Source: Amycolatopsis rubida (GTDB taxonomy: Bacteria > Actinomycetota > Actinomycetes > Mycobacteriales > Pseudonocardiaceae). Taken from it: a stretch of 64,000 nucleotides of DNA. The stretch is taken from NCBI RefSeq assembly GCF_900115345.1, contig NZ_FOWC01000008.1:62001-126000 (forward strand). Reading direction: 5' to 3'. The position numbers and the translations under genes were made by a program. Shown piece after piece: positions 1-25,458 of the stretch; position 1 is the first letter of the stretch, and each line of letters opens with the position of its first letter. Under the pieces are notes generated by a model. It was not told where the DNA came from and ran no database searches. It was given only the letters and a program-made list of their open reading frames with translations.

Positions 1-142
1 CCCCTCCCCGTGTCCAACGTATTCGTTGTACCGCAAACGTTTTCGACGATGAACCCCACTTCGCGCCGGTGGGCGCGTCCGGGCAGCCCGCGGGGCAGTG
101 CGCGCGAGCACGCCACTGGGTGCGCCGCGCCGCCGGTGCGAA
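1..142. other. Left-edge intergenic DNA
   Basis: No convincing gene is visible between the window edge and the stop codon of the MFS gene. The first 50 bases are less GC-rich than the rest and may be the promoter region of a gene outside the window. Confidence 0.4.
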
Positions 143-1399
143 TCAGCTGTCGAGCGGCTGCCGGTTCCGGTCCGCCGCGCCGGGCATCGACACGGAGGAA
201 CCGAAAACGGCGAGGACGGTCAGCGCTCCGCACAGCCACCAGACCCCGGCGGGCCACACGGCCCACAGGGCGACGCCCAGCGCCGGGCCCGCGGCGTAGC
301 CGACCTGGGTCGCGAACTCCGACAGCGCGATGTAGCGCCCGCGCAGCCGCGGCGGTGCGATCCGGCCCGGATACGCCGTGATGGTAGGGGTTCCGACCAT
401 CTCGCCCGCGGTCCACACGAGCGTCGCGACCACGAGCACCGCCGCCGACGGCCCGGCCAGGTAGAGCATCATCCCGGCGCCCACCAGGATGTTGCCGAGC
501 GCGACGGTCGCCCGGTCGGTCATCCGCTGGACGAACCTCGTGATCGGCAGTTCCAGGCAGGTGATCACGAACGCGTTGATCGAGAGCAGCGCGGCGTAGA
601 AACCGGGTGCGTGCCCCGCCGCCGTCACTTGCAGCGCCAGCGTCGAAATGCTCTGGATGTACACCATCCCGCCGAGGATCATCGCGATGTTGAACACGAT
701 GAAGCGGGTGTCGGTCAGCACGGCCAGATAGGACGCCGGCCGGCCGGCCGTCTCCGGCGATTCCCGGGCGTCCGCGACCTCTTCGGAGTCTCCGGACGGG
801 GACGCGTGCGCGACCTCCGAGTGCTTCGGCAGGCTGAACGCGAGCAGCCCGAACGCCACGAGCGCGATCGCGTTGCAGTAGAACATCGCTTCGTAGGAAT
901 AGGTGATCAGCAGCGCGCCGAGCAGCGGACCGGCCACGGTGCCCACGTTGTAGGCGAGCCGGTAGGCGGCGAACACCATGATGTGCCGCTCCGGCGGGGT
1001 CAGGTCGATGAGCAGCGCCGACGCGGCCGGGCGGTAGGCCTGCGAGGTGAGGCCGACGGCCCCGACGACGCCGACCACCGCCGCGATGTTCGTCAGATGC
1101 GGCAGGACGACCGTGAGCACGCCGGCGACCAGCATGGAGCCGACGATGGTGTGGCGGTAGCCGAGCCGGTCGCTCACCGAACCGCCGATGATGACGCCGA
1201 CCACGGTGCCGACGCCGAACGCTCCCAGCGCGAATCCGGTGCTCGCCGTCGAGAACCCGCGGTCGGTCAGGTACAGCACCAGGTAGACCTGGAGGAAGCT
1301 GCCCAGCCGGTTGATCAGGGTGCCGATCAGGAGCAGCCAGACAGGCCTCGACATTCCCCGGAGCGTCTGAATGACGGAAGGGTGCTCCTCAACGGCCAT
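143..1399 (-). CDS. MFS transporter (drug/metabolite exporter type)
   Basis: A 418-residue integral membrane protein of the major facilitator superfamily, predicted to move a small molecule across the cytoplasmic membrane using the proton gradient. Hydrophobic segments run throughout, consistent with 12 helices. The loop after helix 2 carries the MFS signature GGSVSDRLGYRHT (about residues 75-87). A hydrophilic acidic loop (about residues 190-220) separates the two six-helix halves. The ATG start gives MAVEEHPSVIQTLRGM just before the first helix. The gene stands alone. Two TTGC-N3-GCAA palindromes lie about 150 bp upstream of its start and may bind its regulator, but no regulator gene is adjacent. 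The substrate cannot be told. Confidence 0.9.
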   Translation of the reverse strand: MAVEEHPSVIQTLRGMSRPVWLLLIGTLINRLGSFLQVYLVLYLTDRGFSTASTGFALGAFGVGTVVGVIIGGSVSDRLGYRHTIVGSMLVAGVLTVVLPHLTNIAAVVGVVGAVGLTSQAYRPAASALLIDLTPPERHIMVFAAYRLAYNVGTVAGPLLGALLITYSYEAMFYCNAIALVAFGLLAFSLPKHSEVAHASPSGDSEEVADARESPETAGRPASYLAVLTDTRFIVFNIAMILGGMVYIQSISTLALQVTAAGHAPGFYAALLSINAFVITCLELPITRFVQRMTDRATVALGNILVGAGMMLYLAGPSAAVLVVATLVWTAGEMVGTPTITAYPGRIAPPRLRGRYIALSEFATQVGYAAGPALGVALWAVWPAGVWWLCGALTVLAVFGSSVSMPGAADRNRQPLDS

Positions 1400-2400
1400 C
1401 GTGGCTCGCGACCTCGCAGGTCACCGGGACCGGTGAGCGCCGAATGCGCACCGGGGCCGTTGCCGCCCTGGCACGGATCGCACGTCGCGGGCTCGCGGAA
1501 TCATTCGGGTCAAGTGATTGATGCTGACGCATGGTCCCCCAATGGTTGCCTTGCAAGATGTTGCCATGCAAGCTGAGTACGGGTCAATGCTCGGGATTTT
1601 CCGCAACGCGCACGACTTTCAGAAGCAGATTTCGCTGATATGTGTCGCAAACAATCATGGTTTCGTGGTTTCCCGGGAGTAGGTGGCGGGTGCGGGCACC
1701 GTGGCGGGCCGCCCGTGAGGCAACGGGGGCTGATCGGTTCTGCCGCCGGCCCGGGGGCGCTCTTCCCGATCCGAGTATGTGGGCAGATGCATTGCGGCGC
1801 AACGATTTGTGTCCGGAGAGGAAGATGTCGTGCCCGGATTCGTCAGCGTGGAATCGCCAGGCGTCCGGTCTCGGGCAGAGAGAAGATCAAGCCAAGGGCG
1901 CGGCGTCGCGGGAACTGTCAGCAACCCCATTCCGGTGCGCCCCGGCAGGCGGCTCTCGAATGGCGAGGGGAGCAGGCTGCTGCGCCGAACGGTCCCGAAT
2001 CCGCGCAGCCGGTCGTGAATTCGCCGATCGCGAAGTCCTTTTTGTGCCGATCGGTGCTCCAGGCGAAATACCGGGCCCGCCGAATGGCCCGCCGCACTGC
2101 GCCGCGTGCCGACGACCTGGCCGGCGCGTCGCGTTCATTTTCCGTTCGGCGGCGGTTGGCCCGGACTGCGGGGGGCTGGTCGAGGGGTTCCCGGCTTGTG
2201 CTAACTTGGCCGTGCGCCCCGTATGGGCCTACGCATGGAGGTAGCGGCTAACCAGCCAGCACGGAGATCGGGCTTTCCCCTCTCCCGCGGTTCCGCGGAT
2301 CCGTCGACCGGATTTTCGCGCCATGCGTGTGCCTGCGGGGTGTTTTCGCGTCCTTTTTCCGTGCTCGACTCCTCCTTTCCGGAAAACCGAAAGGAATTGT
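1400..2400. other. 1-kb intergenic region, no supported gene
   Basis: This stretch separates the MFS gene from the deazaflavin-oxidoreductase gene. Open frames on both strands give low-complexity Arg/Pro/Ala-rich peptides without recognisable domains, as expected from random high-GC DNA. Apart from the operator-like palindromes at 1546-1571 I find nothing that can be named. Confidence 0.5.
1546..1571. promoter_or_regulatory. Tandem TTGC-N3-GCAA palindromes upstream of the MFS gene
   Basis: Two perfect small palindromes, TTGCCTTGCAA at 1546-1556 and TTGCCATGCAA at 1561-1571, repeat at a 15-bp pitch. Together they also form a larger inverted repeat, CTTGCA-N11-TGCAAG. They sit in the 5' region of the MFS gene and look like a transcription-factor operator. 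The regulator is unknown. Confidence 0.45.
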
Positions 2401-3282
2401 GTGAGCGACGTCTTTTCCTCCCGCCTGATCGCCGAGTTCCGAGCGAACCGCGGCGCGCTGGGCGGCAGGTTCGAGGGCTGGCCGCTGGCCGTGCTGACGA
2501 CGACCGGAGCGAGGACCGGCCTGCGCCGCGAGGTGCTCCTCGGCTGGCTGGAGATCGAGGGAAACGGAGTGGTCGTCGCCTCGGCGAACGGGGCGGACCG
2601 CCATCCGGCCTGGTACCACAACATCCGGCGGCACCCGATGGTGACTGTCGAGGCAGGCGGAGACGCCTACCAGGCGATGGCCGCCATTCCGCGGGGGGCC
2701 GCTTACGAGAGGCTTTTCGCGCAGGTGGTCGCGAAGGCTCCGGGTTACGGCGATTATCAGGCGAAGACGACCCGGGAAATCCCGGTGGTCGTGTTGCATC
2801 GGATCGACAAGCGCGGCAAAGGCATGGGCGATTGGCTTGTCGAGGTGCACCAGTGGTTTCGCGCCGAGTTGCGGGCGCTGCGCGAGCAGGCCGACGACCT
2901 GGCCGACGGCAGCGCGACGGCGCTCGTCCGGCCGGAACCGGACTTGGCTCACGAGATGCGGACGCACTGCCTCGGCTTCTGCACCGCGCTGCGCAGGCAT
3001 CACCTCGGCGAGGACTCGGTGGTGTTCCCGTCGCTGGCCGAGCAGTTCCCCGCGCTCGCTCCGGCGATCGCGCAGCTCGCCGGACAGCACCAGGTGGTGG
3101 CGCGGCTGCAGGACGCGATCCGGCAACTGGTCGACGGCTTCGTCCCAGGCGAATCCGACCCGGTGCGGCTGCGTGCCGAACTGGAGCGGCTCGCCGGTGA
3201 GGTGGAGGCGCACTTCGAGTTCGAGGAGCAAACGGTGGTGACCGCGCTGAACGCGACGGCTGCCGCTCCGCCGACGGCCTGA
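2401..3282 (+). CDS. Deazaflavin(F420)-dependent oxidoreductase fused to a hemerythrin domain
   Basis: A 293-residue two-domain protein. Residues about 1-135 match the DDN/F420-dependent nitroreductase fold: the strand pair around TTTGARTGLRRE and the signature HPAWYHNIRRHPMVTV are typical. The C-terminal half (about 145-285) is a hemerythrin/HHE helical bundle with the iron-ligand pattern: H in EVHQWF, H in EMRTH, HH plus E in RRHHLGEDSVVFP, H in GQHQVV, and H/E in EAHFEFEEQ. The GTG start at 2401 is preferred because AAAGGA lies 5 bases upstream; the more upstream ATG would add a non-conserved stretch across the ribosome site. It probably couples F420-dependent reduction to a di-iron or oxygen/NO-sensing centre; that coupling is inference. 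The last codons are echoed in the repeat that follows. Confidence 0.85.
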   Translation: MSDVFSSRLIAEFRANRGALGGRFEGWPLAVLTTTGARTGLRREVLLGWLEIEGNGVVVASANGADRHPAWYHNIRRHPMVTVEAGGDAYQAMAAIPRGAAYERLFAQVVAKAPGYGDYQAKTTREIPVVVLHRIDKRGKGMGDWLVEVHQWFRAELRALREQADDLADGSATALVRPEPDLAHEMRTHCLGFCTALRRHHLGEDSVVFPSLAEQFPALAPAIAQLAGQHQVVARLQDAIRQLVDGFVPGESDPVRLRAELERLAGEVEAHFEFEEQTVVTALNATAAAPPTA

Positions 3283-3373
3283 GCCGGGGCGCCGGTTCCG
3301 CTCTGGGTGATGGCTGCTGTGCATTGAGCCGGGGGTGCCGGTTCCGTTTCGGGAGCTGGCGGCGCAGTGCGCC

Positions 3374-3724
3374 GAGCCGGGGCGTGCTTCGGTTTGGCGG
3401 GCAGGCTGGCGCCGGACGCAGCTGTGGTGCTGCAGACGGCTTGAGCCGGGGCGACGCCGGTTCCGTTTCGGGAGCTGGCTGCTGTGGGCTGAGCCGGGGC
3501 GTGCTTCGGTTTGGCGGGCAGGCTGGCGCTGGACGCGGCTGTGGTGCTGCCGACGGCTTGAGCCGGGGCGACGCCGGTTCCGTTTCGGGAGCTGGCTGCT
3601 GTGCGCTGAGCCGGGGCGTGCTTCGGTTTCGCGGGCAGGCTGGCACCGGACGTGGCTGTGGTGCCGCCGACGGCCTGAGCCGGGGCGACGCCGGTTCCGT
3701 TTCGGGAGCTGGCGGCGCAGTGCG
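3374..3724 (+). repeat. Three tandem copies of a 117-bp repeat downstream of the hemerythrin gene
   Basis: Units start at 3374, 3491 and 3608, each with GAGCCGGGGCGTGCTTCGG, and are exactly 117 bp (39 codons) long with few substitutions. Each unit contains a degenerate copy of the 3' end of the preceding gene: codons like ALDAAVVLPTA followed by TGA, compared with ALNATAAAPPTA-stop in the gene. Partial copies flank the array at 3283-3373 and 3725-3850. The block at 3806-3835 matches the gene tail at 3244-3273 in 28 of 30 bases. Open frames through the array are repeat artefacts. Confidence 0.85.
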
Positions 3725-3850
3725 ATTTCGAGGGGCGGGTCCGCGCTGGACGCGGCGGCGGTGCCGTCGACGGACTGGCGGCGCTCCGATCTCGCGGGGC
3801 CAGCCGCGCTCAACGCGGCGGCTGCCGCTCCGCCGGGATGAGCCCGGACG

Positions 3851-4436
3851 TCGGCTGGGTGTCCAGTGTGGACTTGATCGCGGCGGGAACACGGCGCCAG
3901 TCCGGGAGAAATGTGCGGCGGGGCCCGGCCCCGGTGGCGAGGGTGCCCACGAATGGTTCAGACCACCAGAATAGCCGCAAACCGGGCCCTCCTGCGCATT
4001 CCGGCGCGGAGTGCGCAGGAGGGCAAGGGAAATCGGCGAGTCGGCGGAGAGCTTGTGCCCGAACGGCGGTTGGGGCGGGGTGCGGGCGCGGGCGCTGACC
4101 CGTGCGGGGGAGCTGATTCGGCTGCGGGCCTGCTGGGCCGTTCGGTGTAGGTAGTGGGAAACTTGACTACTGCGGGTAATTTCGGTTGCCGGGCCGACGT
4201 GACCCATCGTGACATTCCCGTTATCTCACCGGTGCTTCCTGACGGGAAAGACGTGCAGGCCGTGGCTGGAAAATCTCTGTAACGCCGCTCGCTGACCACC
4301 CGATACCTTGGCCAGTGGCACACCTTCGGCGACATCGGGCCGGACCGCCCCCTGATCACTGATCGTGATCATCGGTCCTGACTCAGCGTGCCGGTGGCGA
4401 TCAGGTCCGGGGAGCTTGCGTAGCGCGGGAGGACTG
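3851..4436. other. Intergenic region before the sugar transferase
   Basis: About 590 bp without a supported gene. It contains the hairpin at 3986-4024 and an inverted repeat GATCAC-N5-GTGATC at 4354-4370, about 65 bp before the sugar transferase start, which could be an operator. No clear consensus promoter was found. Confidence 0.4.
3986..4024. terminator. Strong hairpin, 13-bp perfect arms
   Basis: GCCCTCCTGCGCA (3986-3998) pairs perfectly with TGCGCAGGAGGGC (4012-4024). Inside the loop TCCG and CGGA can extend the stem. No T-run follows. It lies between the hemerythrin gene with its repeat array and the sugar transferase, and is probably a factor-independent or bidirectional transcription stop. 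Confidence 0.55.
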
Positions 4437-5987
4437 ATGGAAGAACCGGTGCGGCCATGGCCCGCGGACGGCGTCGCGCCGCCGCGGGTCGACCTGGGGG
4501 CGGTCTCCGCACCGCCGGTCGACGTGGCGGCACCGCCGCCCGGCCGTGCCGCCGACGCCCGGCTGGACCCCGCCACGGTCTGTCCGGCGGAGGGAGATCC
4601 GCCGAAAACGCACGCCGCGGAGTGGGAAAAGCGCTACCGCAGGACGGTGATCGCTTCGGATCTCGTCGCGGCCTGCGTGGTGATCGCGATCAGCGCGTTC
4701 GTCATCGACCGGCTCGCACCGCACGACATGCACGCGTTCGGCACCGCGTTCGCGATCCTCTGCGCGCTTCCGGTCAGCCGGGCCTGGAGCGCCCGCGTGC
4801 TGGGGGAGGGGCCCGAGGAGTACCGCACGCTCGGCCGCGCGCTGATCACCGCGGCGGTGCTGGTCGCGTTCGGCGGGCTGTTGTTCGGTGCGCTCGAAGT
4901 GCAGCCCTGGGTGTTTTACGTCGTGCCGGCCGTCGCGTCAGTACTGTTCCCCCAGCGATACGTGCTCCGGCAGATTCTGCACCGGAGACGGCGGCGCGGG
5001 TTGTGCCTGCTGCCGGTGATGGCGGCCGGCAGCGCGGAAACGGTCGCGGACCTGATCAAGCGGACCCGCGCCGAAGCGCACGTCGGATGGCGGGTCGAGG
5101 CGGTCTGCACGTCCACCGGGCACGGGGAGATCGAAGGCGTTCCGGTCGTCGGGCGGCTCGAAGAGCTTTCCCGGCACGTGCGCCGCGGCGGGTACCGGGT
5201 CGTGGCGATCACGGCCGACCAGTATTGGAATCCCGAGCGGCTGCAGCGGCTCGCCTGGGATCTCGAAGGCACCTCGTCGGAGATGGTCGTCGCGCCGGTG
5301 CTGATGGAGGTCGCCGGGCCGAGGCTGAACGTCAGCGGGGTCCTGGGCATGCCGCTGCTGCGGGTGACCGCGCCAGCGTTCACCGGCGGGCGCCGCCTGG
5401 TCAAAGAGGTCGTCGACCGCTGTGGCGCGGCCTTCCTGCTGGCGCTGTTCTCCCCGGTGCTGCTGGCGATCGCGGTAGCGGTGAAGGCGGGCGACCGCGG
5501 TCCGGTGATCTACCGGCAGCGGCGCATCGGCAAGGACGGCGAAGCGTTCACCATGCTCAAATTCCGCACCATGGTCGTGAACGCGCATGCGACCCGGCAC
5601 GACCTGGAGAAGGCGAACGAAGGCGCGGGGCCGCTCTTCAAGATGAAGAAGGACCCCCGGGTCACGAAGGTCGGCGGATTGCTGCGCCGGTACTCGCTCG
5701 ACGAACTGCCGCAGCTGTTCAACGTCGTCGCCGGGCGGATGTCGCTGGTCGGCCCCCGGCCGCCGCTGCCGGAGGAGACGGCGACCTACGCTCCGGCCGC
5801 GCGCCGCAGGCTGCTGGTGAAACCCGGGCTGACCGGGCTGTGGCAGGTGAGCGGGCGCAGCGATCTTTCCTGGGACGAGAGCATCCGGCTCGACCTGCGC
5901 TACGTCGAGGACTGGTCGCTGGCGCTGGACCTGGTGATCCTCTGGAAGACCTTGCGCGCTGTCCTCGCCGGGCAGGGCGCCTACTGA
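4437..5987 (+). CDS. Polyprenyl-phosphate sugar-1-phosphate transferase (exopolysaccharide initiation)
   Basis: A 516-residue membrane enzyme of the bacterial sugar transferase (WcaJ/WbaP) family. It loads the first sugar phosphate from a nucleotide sugar onto undecaprenyl phosphate, starting exopolysaccharide or glycan assembly at the inner face of the membrane. Visible parts are a Pro/Ala-rich cytoplasmic tail (1-60), four hydrophobic helices (about 70-200), a CoA-binding-like domain (about 200-310), and the catalytic C-terminal domain. The latter begins at a reentrant hydrophobic helix and carries VIYRQRRIGKDGEAFTMLKFRTM, RRYSLDELPQLFNV, MSLVGPRPPLPEE and KPGLTGLWQVSGRS. The ATG at 4437 has GGGAGGAC just upstream. 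No glycosyltransferases follow, so it is an isolated initiating enzyme. The sugar is unknown. Confidence 0.9.
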   Translation: MEEPVRPWPADGVAPPRVDLGAVSAPPVDVAAPPPGRAADARLDPATVCPAEGDPPKTHAAEWEKRYRRTVIASDLVAACVVIAISAFVIDRLAPHDMHAFGTAFAILCALPVSRAWSARVLGEGPEEYRTLGRALITAAVLVAFGGLLFGALEVQPWVFYVVPAVASVLFPQRYVLRQILHRRRRRGLCLLPVMAAGSAETVADLIKRTRAEAHVGWRVEAVCTSTGHGEIEGVPVVGRLEELSRHVRRGGYRVVAITADQYWNPERLQRLAWDLEGTSSEMVVAPVLMEVAGPRLNVSGVLGMPLLRVTAPAFTGGRRLVKEVVDRCGAAFLLALFSPVLLAIAVAVKAGDRGPVIYRQRRIGKDGEAFTMLKFRTMVVNAHATRHDLEKANEGAGPLFKMKKDPRVTKVGGLLRRYSLDELPQLFNVVAGRMSLVGPRPPLPEETATYAPAARRRLLVKPGLTGLWQVSGRSDLSWDESIRLDLRYVEDWSLALDLVILWKTLRAVLAGQGAY

Positions 5988-6109
5988 GCTGCGAGGATCC
6001 CGTCGCCCGCGTGCGCTGAGTCACAACGGCCGGGTTCGGGAAATAGTCAAGCGTTCAACCAGGTTGGTGCCGTGCGTAGGCGACAGCACGGGAAGGAACG
6101 CCGAATCCG

Positions 6110-6721
6110 ATGACTACTTTCGCAGAGTCCCAGCAGCTGCAGGTGCCCGCTGAGGTGCAGGACCTGCTGTTCCGCGAGGCGCGCACGGCCAACAGCTTCA
6201 GCGCCGAGCCGGTGACCGACGAGCAGGTCCGCGCGATCTACGACCTCGTCAAGTGGGCTCCGACCTCGATGAACACCCAGCCGCTGCGCGCGCTGGTGAT
6301 CCGCAGCGACGAGGCCAAGCAGCGCCTGCTGCCGCACCTGGCCGAGGGCAACCGCGCCAAGACCGAGGCCGCGCCGCTGACCGTGATCCTGGCCGCGGAC
6401 GTCGACTTCCACGAGAACATCCCGCAGACCTTCCCGCACAACCCCGGCGTGAAGGACAACTTCGCCGACGAAGCGGGCCGCGTCGAGTTCTCCAAGCTGA
6501 ACTCGCTGCTGCAGGTCGGCTACTTCATCATCGGCGTGCGCGCCGCCGGACTGGCCGCGGGCCCGATGACCGGCTTCGACGCCGCGGGCGTGGACAAGGA
6601 GTTCTTCTCCGGCAACAACTGGCGTTCGCTCGTCGCGGTGAACGTCGGCAAGCCGGGCGACAACCCGTGGTACGACCGCCTGCCGCGGCTCGACTTCGAC
6701 CAGGTCGTCGACACCCTCTGA
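6110..6721 (+). CDS. rutE: Malonic semialdehyde reductase RutE-type nitroreductase
   Basis: A 203-residue FMN-dependent nitroreductase-fold protein. RutE reduces malonic semialdehyde to 3-hydroxypropionate at the end of the Rut pyrimidine-degradation pathway. The family signatures are [30 protein letters not shown] at the FMN site, followed by [21 protein letters not shown] and GPMTGFD near the C-terminal FMN contacts. Length is normal for RutE. No other rut gene is present, so the physiological substrate may be a different aldehyde or quinone. A clear hairpin follows the stop codon, so it is probably a single-gene transcript. Confidence 0.85.
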
Positions 6722-6734
6722 CCCTTGCCGCGCC

Positions 6735-6774
6735 GCCGAGAGGCCGCCCCGCACGCCCGGGGCGGCCTCTCGGC
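6735..6774 (+). terminator. Terminator hairpin after the RutE-type gene
   Basis: Seventeen-base perfect arms (GCCGAGAGGCCGCCCCG and its complement) enclose a 6-base loop, 13 bases after the stop codon. There is no T-run. It separates the nitroreductase from the thrS transcript. Confidence 0.75.
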
Positions 6775-6876
6775 GTCCGCGGGCAGGGTTGGCTGACGGC
6801 GGTCGAATCGGCGAACCCGCCGCCGACTAGCATCAGCGGGAGTCGTTTCAGTCACTTCTCCCAAAGGAGTCCGATC

Positions 6877-8904
6877 GTGTCCCAACCGTCGTCAGCTGCC
6901 GCCGTACCCGCCCCGCGCGTGGTGGTGCCGGCGGGCACTACGGCGGGCGCCGCGGTGCGCGAAGCCGGGCTGCCCACCAAGGGCCCGGACACGATCGTCG
7001 TCGTCCGCGACGCCGACGGGAAACTGCGCGACCTCGCCTGGGCCCCGGAAGCCGAGGCGCAGGTCGAAGCCGTCGCGGCGGACACCGAGGACGGCCGCAG
7101 CGTGATCCGGCACTCCGCCGCGCACGTGCTCGCCCAGGCCGTGCAGCAGGAATTCCCGGACGCCAAGCTCGGCATCGGCCCGCCGGTGCGCGACGGCTTC
7201 TACTACGACTTCGCCGTCGAAAAGCCGTTCACGCCCGAGGATCTGCAGAAGCTTGAGAAGCGGATGAAGCAGATCGTCAAGGGCGCGCAGCAGTTCTCGC
7301 GTCGCGTGTTCGCCTCCACCGGCGAGGCCAAGGAAGAACTGGCGAACGAGCCGTTCAAGCTCGAACTGGTGGACATCAAGTCTGATGTGGACACGACCGA
7401 GGTCATGGAGGTCGGCGGCGGAGAGCTGACCATCTACGACAACCTCGACCCGCGCACCAAGGAGCGCGTGTGGAGCGACCTCTGCCGCGGCCCGCACGTG
7501 CCCACCACCAAGTTCATCCCGGCCTTCAAGCTCACCCGGGTGGCCGCCGCGTACTGGCGCGGCAACGAGAAAAACCCGCAGCTGCAACGGATCTACGGCA
7601 CCGCGTGGGAATCGGCCGAGGCGCAGGACGCCCACCTGGAGCGCATCGCCGAGGCCGAGCGCCGCGACCACCGCAAGCTCGGCGCCGAGCTGGACCTGTT
7701 CTCCTTCCCCGAGGAGATCGGCTCCGGGCTCCCGGTGTTCCACCCCAAGGGCGGCATCATCCGCCGCGAGCTGGAGAACTACTCGCGCCGCAGGCACGAG
7801 GAAGCCGGCTACGAGTTCGTGAACACGCCGCACATCTCCAAGGGCGACCTGTTCCACACCTCCGGGCACCTGCCGTACTACGCGGACACCATGTTCCCGC
7901 CGGTGCAGTTCGAGGAAGAGGACTACTACCTCAAGGCGATGAACTGCCCGATGCACAACCTGATCTTCCGCTCGCGCGGGCGGTCCTACCGCGAACTGCC
8001 CCTGCGGCTGTTCGAATTCGGCACCGTCTACCGCTACGAGAAGTCCGGCGTCGTGCACGGCCTCACCCGCGTGCGCGGCCTGACGATGGACGATTCGCAC
8101 ATCTACTGCACCAAGGAGCAGATGCCGGGCGAGCTGCGGTCGCTGCTCAAGTTCGTGCTGGACCTGCTGGCCGACTACGGCCTGTCCGACTTCTACCTGG
8201 AACTGTCCACCCGAGGGGACTCCGACAAGTTCATCGGCGAGGACTGGGAGTGGGAGGAGGCCACCGAGACGCTGCGCCAGGCCGCCGTCGACTCCGGCCT
8301 CGAACTGGTGCCCGACCCGGGCGGCGCGGCCTTCTACGGCCCGAAGATCTCGGTGCAGGCGAAGGACGCCATCGGCCGCACCTGGCAGATGTCGACCATC
8401 CAGCTCGACTTCAACCAGAACAAGCGGTTCGGTCTCGAATACACCGCCTCCGACGGCAGCCGCCAGCGGCCGATCATGATCCACCGCGCGCTGTTCGGGT
8501 CGATCGAGCGGTTCTTCGGCGTGCTGACCGAGCACTACGCGGGCGCGTTCCCGGCGTGGCTGTCGCCGGTGCAGACGGTCGCCATCCCGATCACCGCCGA
8601 CCAGGTCGAGTACCTGCGCGGCGTCGAGAAGGCGTTGCGCGCCAAGGGGATCCGCGTCGAGGTCGACGCGAGCGACGACCGGATGCAGAAGAAGATCCGC
8701 ACGCACACCACGCAGAAGGTGCCGTTCCTGCTGCTGGCGGGCGCGAAGGACGCGGAGGCGGGCGCGGTGTCGTTCCGGTTCCGCGACGGCGGGCAGATCA
8801 ACGGCGTCCCGGTGGAGCAGGCGGTCGAAGCGATCGCGGAGTGGGTCGAGCGGCGGGAGAACGCGTCGCCCTCGGCCGAGGCCGTGGAGAAGATCCTGAA
8901 GTGA
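6877..8904 (+). CDS. thrS: Threonyl-tRNA synthetase
   Basis: A 675-residue class II aminoacyl-tRNA synthetase that charges tRNA-Thr and edits mis-made Ser-tRNA-Thr. Domains in order are an N-terminal TGS domain (about 15-80), the editing domain starting with [11 protein letters not shown] (zinc-type HxxxH), the catalytic core and the anticodon-binding domain after [13 protein letters not shown]. The catalytic zinc ligands are visible as the Cys of MNCPMHN, the His of [10 protein letters not shown] and the His of [13 protein letters not shown]. The GTG start at 6877 is set by AAAGGAG eight bases upstream. The downstream HIT gene overlaps it by 4 bp (GTGA), so the two are cotranscribed. The gene pair and what follows match the thrS-HIT-pgsA-PIM acyltransferase-pimA order of mycobacteria. 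Confidence 0.98.
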
Positions 8905-25304: not shown

Positions 25305-25400
25305 GCACCGGCACCGGCACCGGCACCGGCACCGGCACCGGCACCGGCACCGGCACCGGCACCGGCACCGGCACCGGCACCGGCACCGGCATCGGCACCG
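25305..25400. repeat. Hexanucleotide microsatellite, 16 units of GCACCG
   Basis: Fourteen perfect GCACCG units (25305-25388), one GCATCG variant and one further perfect unit. It lies just upstream of the deacetylase start. In the deacetylase frame it would read as repeated Pro-Val, and six-base slippage would not break that frame. A palindrome GTACTAGTAC is at its left side. Confidence 0.9.
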
Positions 25401-25458
25401 GCGCTGCCGGGGGAGCCGTGGCCCCGCCCGCCGCGGGGCGGGGCCGGCGACGAACCGG

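Follow-up and report, generated by a model that had tools for sequence, protein, structure and literature searches.

A tandem repeat with a period of 117 bp, which lies directly behind a reductase-hemerythrin gene of Amycolatopsis rubida, carries copies of the end of that gene. We put the probability of the whole account, a local minisatellite that was born by gene-end duplication, was amplified later and is most likely neutral, at about 0.85. The array is regarded as a real, ordinary and probably neutral minisatellite of a known kind, and it says little on function. It is a readable case of bacterial minisatellite birth: the intact source gene stands alongside, a gene-end copy marks the right border, and a sister species, A. 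dendrobii, holds a related, decayed state of the array. Features are collected in Table 1. The window is the whole stretch of 64,000 nt that was analysed, and coordinates refer to it unless another contig is named.

Table 1. Features at the 3′ end of the reductase-hemerythrin gene, in window coordinates.
Feature	Position	Strand	Basis or remark
Source gene, F420H2-dependent quinone reductase domain then hemerythrin domain	2401..3282	+	PF04075, PF01814
Gene 3′ end, source of copies	3201..3282	+	local alignments with pre-tail, tail and units
First copy of post-stop segment, part of unit	3283..3323	+	alignment of 3244-3360 to unit
117-bp unit 1, older	3324..3440	+	Tandem Repeats Finder
117-bp unit 2	3441..3557	+	Tandem Repeats Finder
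117-bp unit 3	3558..3674	+	Tandem Repeats Finder
Partial unit	3675..3716	+	98% to unit over 3676-3716; Tandem Repeats Finder array end 3713
Pre-tail, old decayed gene-end copy	3717..3778	+	score 51 vs gene end
Tail, gene-end copy joined to conserved flank	3779..3845	+	score 57 vs gene end
GTCCAGTGTGGAC, small inverted repeat, right border of added DNA	3861..3873	+	3′ of stop in 5/6 close relatives

The array and its source gene

In a domain search the two domains of the source-gene protein were found with E values of 7.7e-34 (PF04075) and 2e-15 (PF01814). The protein is matched in 80 of 80 genomes of the genus; six matches are 82–88% identical over nearly the whole length, and the closest named relatives are the proteins of Amycolatopsis nivea, A. 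circi, A. echigonensis, A. orientalis DSM 43388 and A. dendrobii. The stop codon occupies 3280–3282, and it is followed on the same strand by a gene for a bacterial sugar transferase, from about position 4437 (PF02397, E 7.1e-67). The block 3991–4437 in front of the latter is kept in 6/6 close relatives with 87–94% identity.

Tandem Repeats Finder reports, as the sole long-period array in the window, a repeat at 3324–3713 with period 117, 3.3 copies, 93% matches, 1% indels and a score of 657. This bears out the 117-bp repeat that an earlier note, made from the sequence alone, had described behind the hemerythrin-fusion gene. Units 2 and 3 differ at 6/117 positions. Between units 1 and 2 there are 30/117 mismatches when compared without gaps and 87% identity by local alignment, the two being separated by small indels that offset each other. 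The segment 3244–3360, which spans the stop codon, aligns with the unit as well (78%, E 1e-16), and therefore the repeat family extends over the gene end.

Near-identical units standing head to tail and an origin in place at one locus, as judged from genome searches limited to the best-scoring candidates, correspond to what is understood as a bacterial minisatellite. The stop codon lies inside the repeat region, as in VNTRs that overlap stop codons, although the Tandem Repeats Finder array itself starts at 3324, past the stop. Ten such VNTRs are described for Yersinia pestis, and in the section of that study drawn on here their copy number is said to be one that may affect the encoded protein less (PMC3689786). 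The likeness consists in the stop of the gene being placed within the repeat region; the Y. pestis motifs are 1–60 bp long and strain variation was measured, whereas the units here have 117 bp and only species are compared (PMC3689786). The rnc-fpg1 intergenic region of the M. tuberculosis complex (ETR-F/VNTR3239) has reached 279–358 bp through composite tandem repeats (55 and 79 bp). Similar to the present locus, an intergenic gap of few bp in relatives is enlarged there by tandem repeats, but these lie upstream of the linked gene, and a gene-end origin is unmentioned in the passages on this region (PMC2734929). A survey of prokaryotic satellites gives 23 for A. mediterranei and some units longer than 30 nt, placing tandem arrays on record for Amycolatopsis. 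Its definition requires at least four repeats of 10–200 nt, of which the 3.3 copies of 117 bp fall short, and origin from gene ends is untreated in the portion of the survey considered here (PMC6749651).

Tandem arrays are common in this genome. With a period of at least 25 and a score of at least 150, 36 non-overlapping arrays were counted in three contigs (1.16 Mb), 21 of them non-coding according to a crude codon-usage caller covering 68–74% of the DNA. Among these 21 arrays, only 3324–3713 clearly resembles a facing gene end: in no other case did 0/200 shuffles do as well against the 3′ end of a facing gene. Next came arrays with 1/200, 5/200 and 5/200 in about 40 comparisons, which is near chance.

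Several other arrays were seen along the way. A hexamer array of GCACCG is found at 25305–25402 in the window (16.3 copies, 97%), and on another contig of the same genome tandem arrays of many different periods are densely clustered (C27:244297–267290, loci L154 and L155). The top score among arrays of period at least 20 in the three contigs belongs to a 27-bp unit at C27:229950–230433 (L153; 17.9 copies, 97%), non-coding by the crude caller.

Copies of the gene end

Each part of the repeat stretch was compared with the final 82 nt of the gene and judged against 1000 shuffles. Pre-tail and tail were matched equally well by 0/1000 shuffles each, unit 2 by 0, unit 3 by 2 and unit 1 by 137. The claim of a degenerate gene-end copy in every unit thus holds unevenly, unit 1 alone being no better than shuffles. 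The scores of pre-tail and tail (Table 1) were reached by none of 615 other gene ends (616 ends were taken by a simple length and GC rule, and the caller is crude). With both copies ahead of all shuffles and all other gene ends, the proposed origin, in which the end of the gene was duplicated repeatedly, is upheld. Taken alone, the array 3324–3713 has a score of 43 with its own gene end, a value that 5/615 other gene ends reach, and unit 2 alone scores 39, reached by 1/615. Across 499 random genome pieces of 576 nt the own gene end attained a maximum of 46, compared to 65 for the repeat stretch. The other half of the unit was matched to the gene no better than shuffles (895/1000 and 484/1000 as good), as expected if it is derived from behind the stop.

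The 117-bp core is more decayed than the pre-tail and tail copies. Between 3244–3273 in the gene and 3806–3835 in the tail, 28/30 bases are the same, with two substitutions, exactly as the earlier note had it. That this copy ends the array needs a correction, however: the best copies, 3717–3778 and 3779–3845, are situated outside the 117-bp array proper, between the array and the conserved flank.

For a joint alignment eight gene-end copies, five from this genome and three from A. dendrobii, were excised by hand. A gap of 8–10 nt recurs at a single position in all eight, and the four gene ends in the alignment are complete there. The same gap in eight copies points towards one founding duplication, which is probably older than the split of this genome and A. 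dendrobii. The direction from gene to array is indicated by the array-less species, since they have the same gene end.

Close relatives and the proposed history

In alignments with close relatives (one genome per species; the relative G059 was left out) the gene is unbroken, as is the downstream block, and the additional DNA lies between them. The length of the locus differs between species. Stop and conserved 13-mer stand 578 nt apart here, 266 nt in A. dendrobii and 70 nt in A. nivea; the distance is 23 nt in A. circi, 23 nt in genome G071 and 7 nt in A. echigonensis. The exact 13-mer is absent from A. orientalis DSM 43388, which has a near-match about equally close to the stop. This genome, A. 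dendrobii and A. nivea, those with the longer gaps, form a clade with a support of 95/97 for the gene and 100/99 for gene and flank, the branching order within the three being settled by neither tree.

A longer form of the border sequence, GTGTCCAGTGTGGAC at 3859–3873 (+), contains a small inverted repeat and the 13-base core. It occurs at five exact places in the genome, compared to none for the reversed control.

For the A. dendrobii stretch, no shuffle was as good against the gene end of that species or against the stretch of this genome (0/500 in both cases). For the A. nivea stretch, 32/500 shuffles were as good against its own gene end, 7/500 against the A. dendrobii gene end and 26/500 against the stretch of this genome, and the comparison with other gene ends gave 30/615. 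Judged by these alignments, homology of the A. nivea stretch is not clear.

The homology of the copies, their location, their distribution over species and the shared gap are observed, while for the mechanism, for the sequence of events and for the neutrality of the array we infer the following. In an ancestor that this strain shared with A. dendrobii, and perhaps with A. nivea too, the last ~75–80 nt of the reductase-hemerythrin gene with the stop and some following bases would have been duplicated in tandem directly 3′ of the gene, and 8–10 nt would have been lost early within the copies. One version may later have been amplified and homogenised by slippage or unequal recombination, resulting in the 117-bp units of this genome, while A. 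nivea has next to nothing of the array. The gene end is the same as in relatives and the sugar-transferase gene retains its conserved upstream block, which argues for the array being most likely neutral spacer DNA.

Alternative readings

The 3′ end of the gene could also be a recurrent copying site, with the stop region recopied several times in two species, supplying in-frame back-up stops and a buffer to the upstream block of the next gene that would be tolerated or mildly favoured. We consider this unlikely. Seven of eight TGAGCC motifs are indeed in the frame of the gene's stop, yet this needs few coincidences, since the spacings of 45, 48 and 117 are multiples of three that were multiplied by duplication. 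It is quite improbable, too, that the array is retained because its GC-rich folded tail shapes the 3′ end of the gene and protects the mRNA or ends transcription. The sense RNA (+ strand) folds better than whole-stretch shuffles (z -4.5, 0/100), the opposite strand is without fold excess (z +1.7), and in M. tuberculosis lengths of intergenic tandem repeats were linked to the expression of a gene, although in the part of that paper concerned the repeats lie upstream (PMC2734929). When the layout is kept by using tandems of the shuffled unit as control, however, the excess shrinks to a non-significant z of -1.6 with 5/60 as stable, so the structure beyond composition and tandem layout that marks a regulatory 3′ RNA element was not observed. 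On this fold comparison the special role in mRNA 3′-end stability that the earlier note had considered lacks support. Single units were equalled in stability by 13/200 and 7/200 shuffles, and several close relatives do without the array. Only one terminator-like match is located inside it, the stretch 1400–4700 holding 5 such matches compared to 2.4 expected. Nothing in Rfam reached the gathering score within 1–8000, and at E up to 1 the region 2100–4450 gave one weak match to a microRNA family (3981–4031, E 0.22, with 23 bits where the cut-off is 86).

The remaining readings carry still less weight. It is very unlikely that an assembly artefact accounts for some of the array or for its copy number: the assembly comprises 45 contigs, so short reads are possible and the exact number of 117-bp units in it is unsure, but the units differ from one another and decayed copies exist at the same place in A. 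dendrobii. There is hardly any chance that a mobile or dispersed repeat family landed behind the gene in the manner of the mycobacterial MIRUs, with which the array shares a similar unit size and the intergenic DNA of an actinomycete. MIRUs are repeats of 40–100 bp tied to gene borders; in the passages drawn on they occupy many dispersed loci and seem to insert at start codons, whereas the array here is gene-derived and found at one locus (PMC12548453, PMC2734929). Among the best-scoring candidates (best 40 of 404 and best 9 of 109) no second locus above 43 bp was found in the genome, only matches of 42–43 bp at 84%. In 79 other genomes of the genus there were likewise only short matches to the unit, up to ~62 bp at 79%, in 16/79 (best 9 of 109 candidates scored). 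The many loci typical of MIRUs are thus missing in these searches, the copies match the end of their own gene, and the tail copy marks the right border. A mobile element was rejected on these short weak matches, and the dispersed element that the earlier note had named as its own refutation gave no sign of itself among the candidates scored. An open frame running through the array and yielding a repetitive peptide is just as hard to credit. Frames of 216 and 168 aa on the + strand, and longer ones on the − strand, do cross the array, but its GC content is 0.70–0.79 at all three codon positions, compared to 0.75/0.48/0.87 in the gene, and no sign was found of the 39-codon period as a coding signal. 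The offsetting small indels between units 1 and 2 and the absence of the array in relatives also speak against it. With a codon-position composition that is not that of coding DNA and no gene predicted in the array by a simple codon-usage caller, a coding repeat was rejected.

A conserved leader of the same gene

More unusual than the tandem array is the leader of the reductase-hemerythrin gene, which lies upstream at 2216–2341 (+) and is strongly conserved. DNA similarity to 2195–2400 was found in 55/80 genomes of the genus, in 54 of them directly upstream of the protein match and in G017 elsewhere (places compared by eye). The leader core is present in 28/80 loci of protein relatives, always upstream of the matched gene, and occurs also in Streptomyces, Nonomuraea, Kitasatospora and Pseudonocardia. 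It gave no Rfam match, either at the gathering score within 1–8000 or at E up to 1 within 2100–4450.

The fold of the leader in the window has a z of -2.5, with 2/200 shuffles as stable. For all 29 leaders, of which only the first ~100 nt were used, RNAalifold predicted 12 pairs, none with changes on both sides. At full length, with the 18/29 leaders that have a recognisable far strand, 33 pairs were predicted, five of them with double changes; all five lie in inner stems, and the covariation term is only -0.29. The leader is a candidate cis-regulatory RNA, the evidence for a structured RNA being modest. A covariance model of the leader has one match in this genome and hits 2/394 genomes of the class, its own included; in the second genome the leader lies upstream of a homologue with 65% identity.
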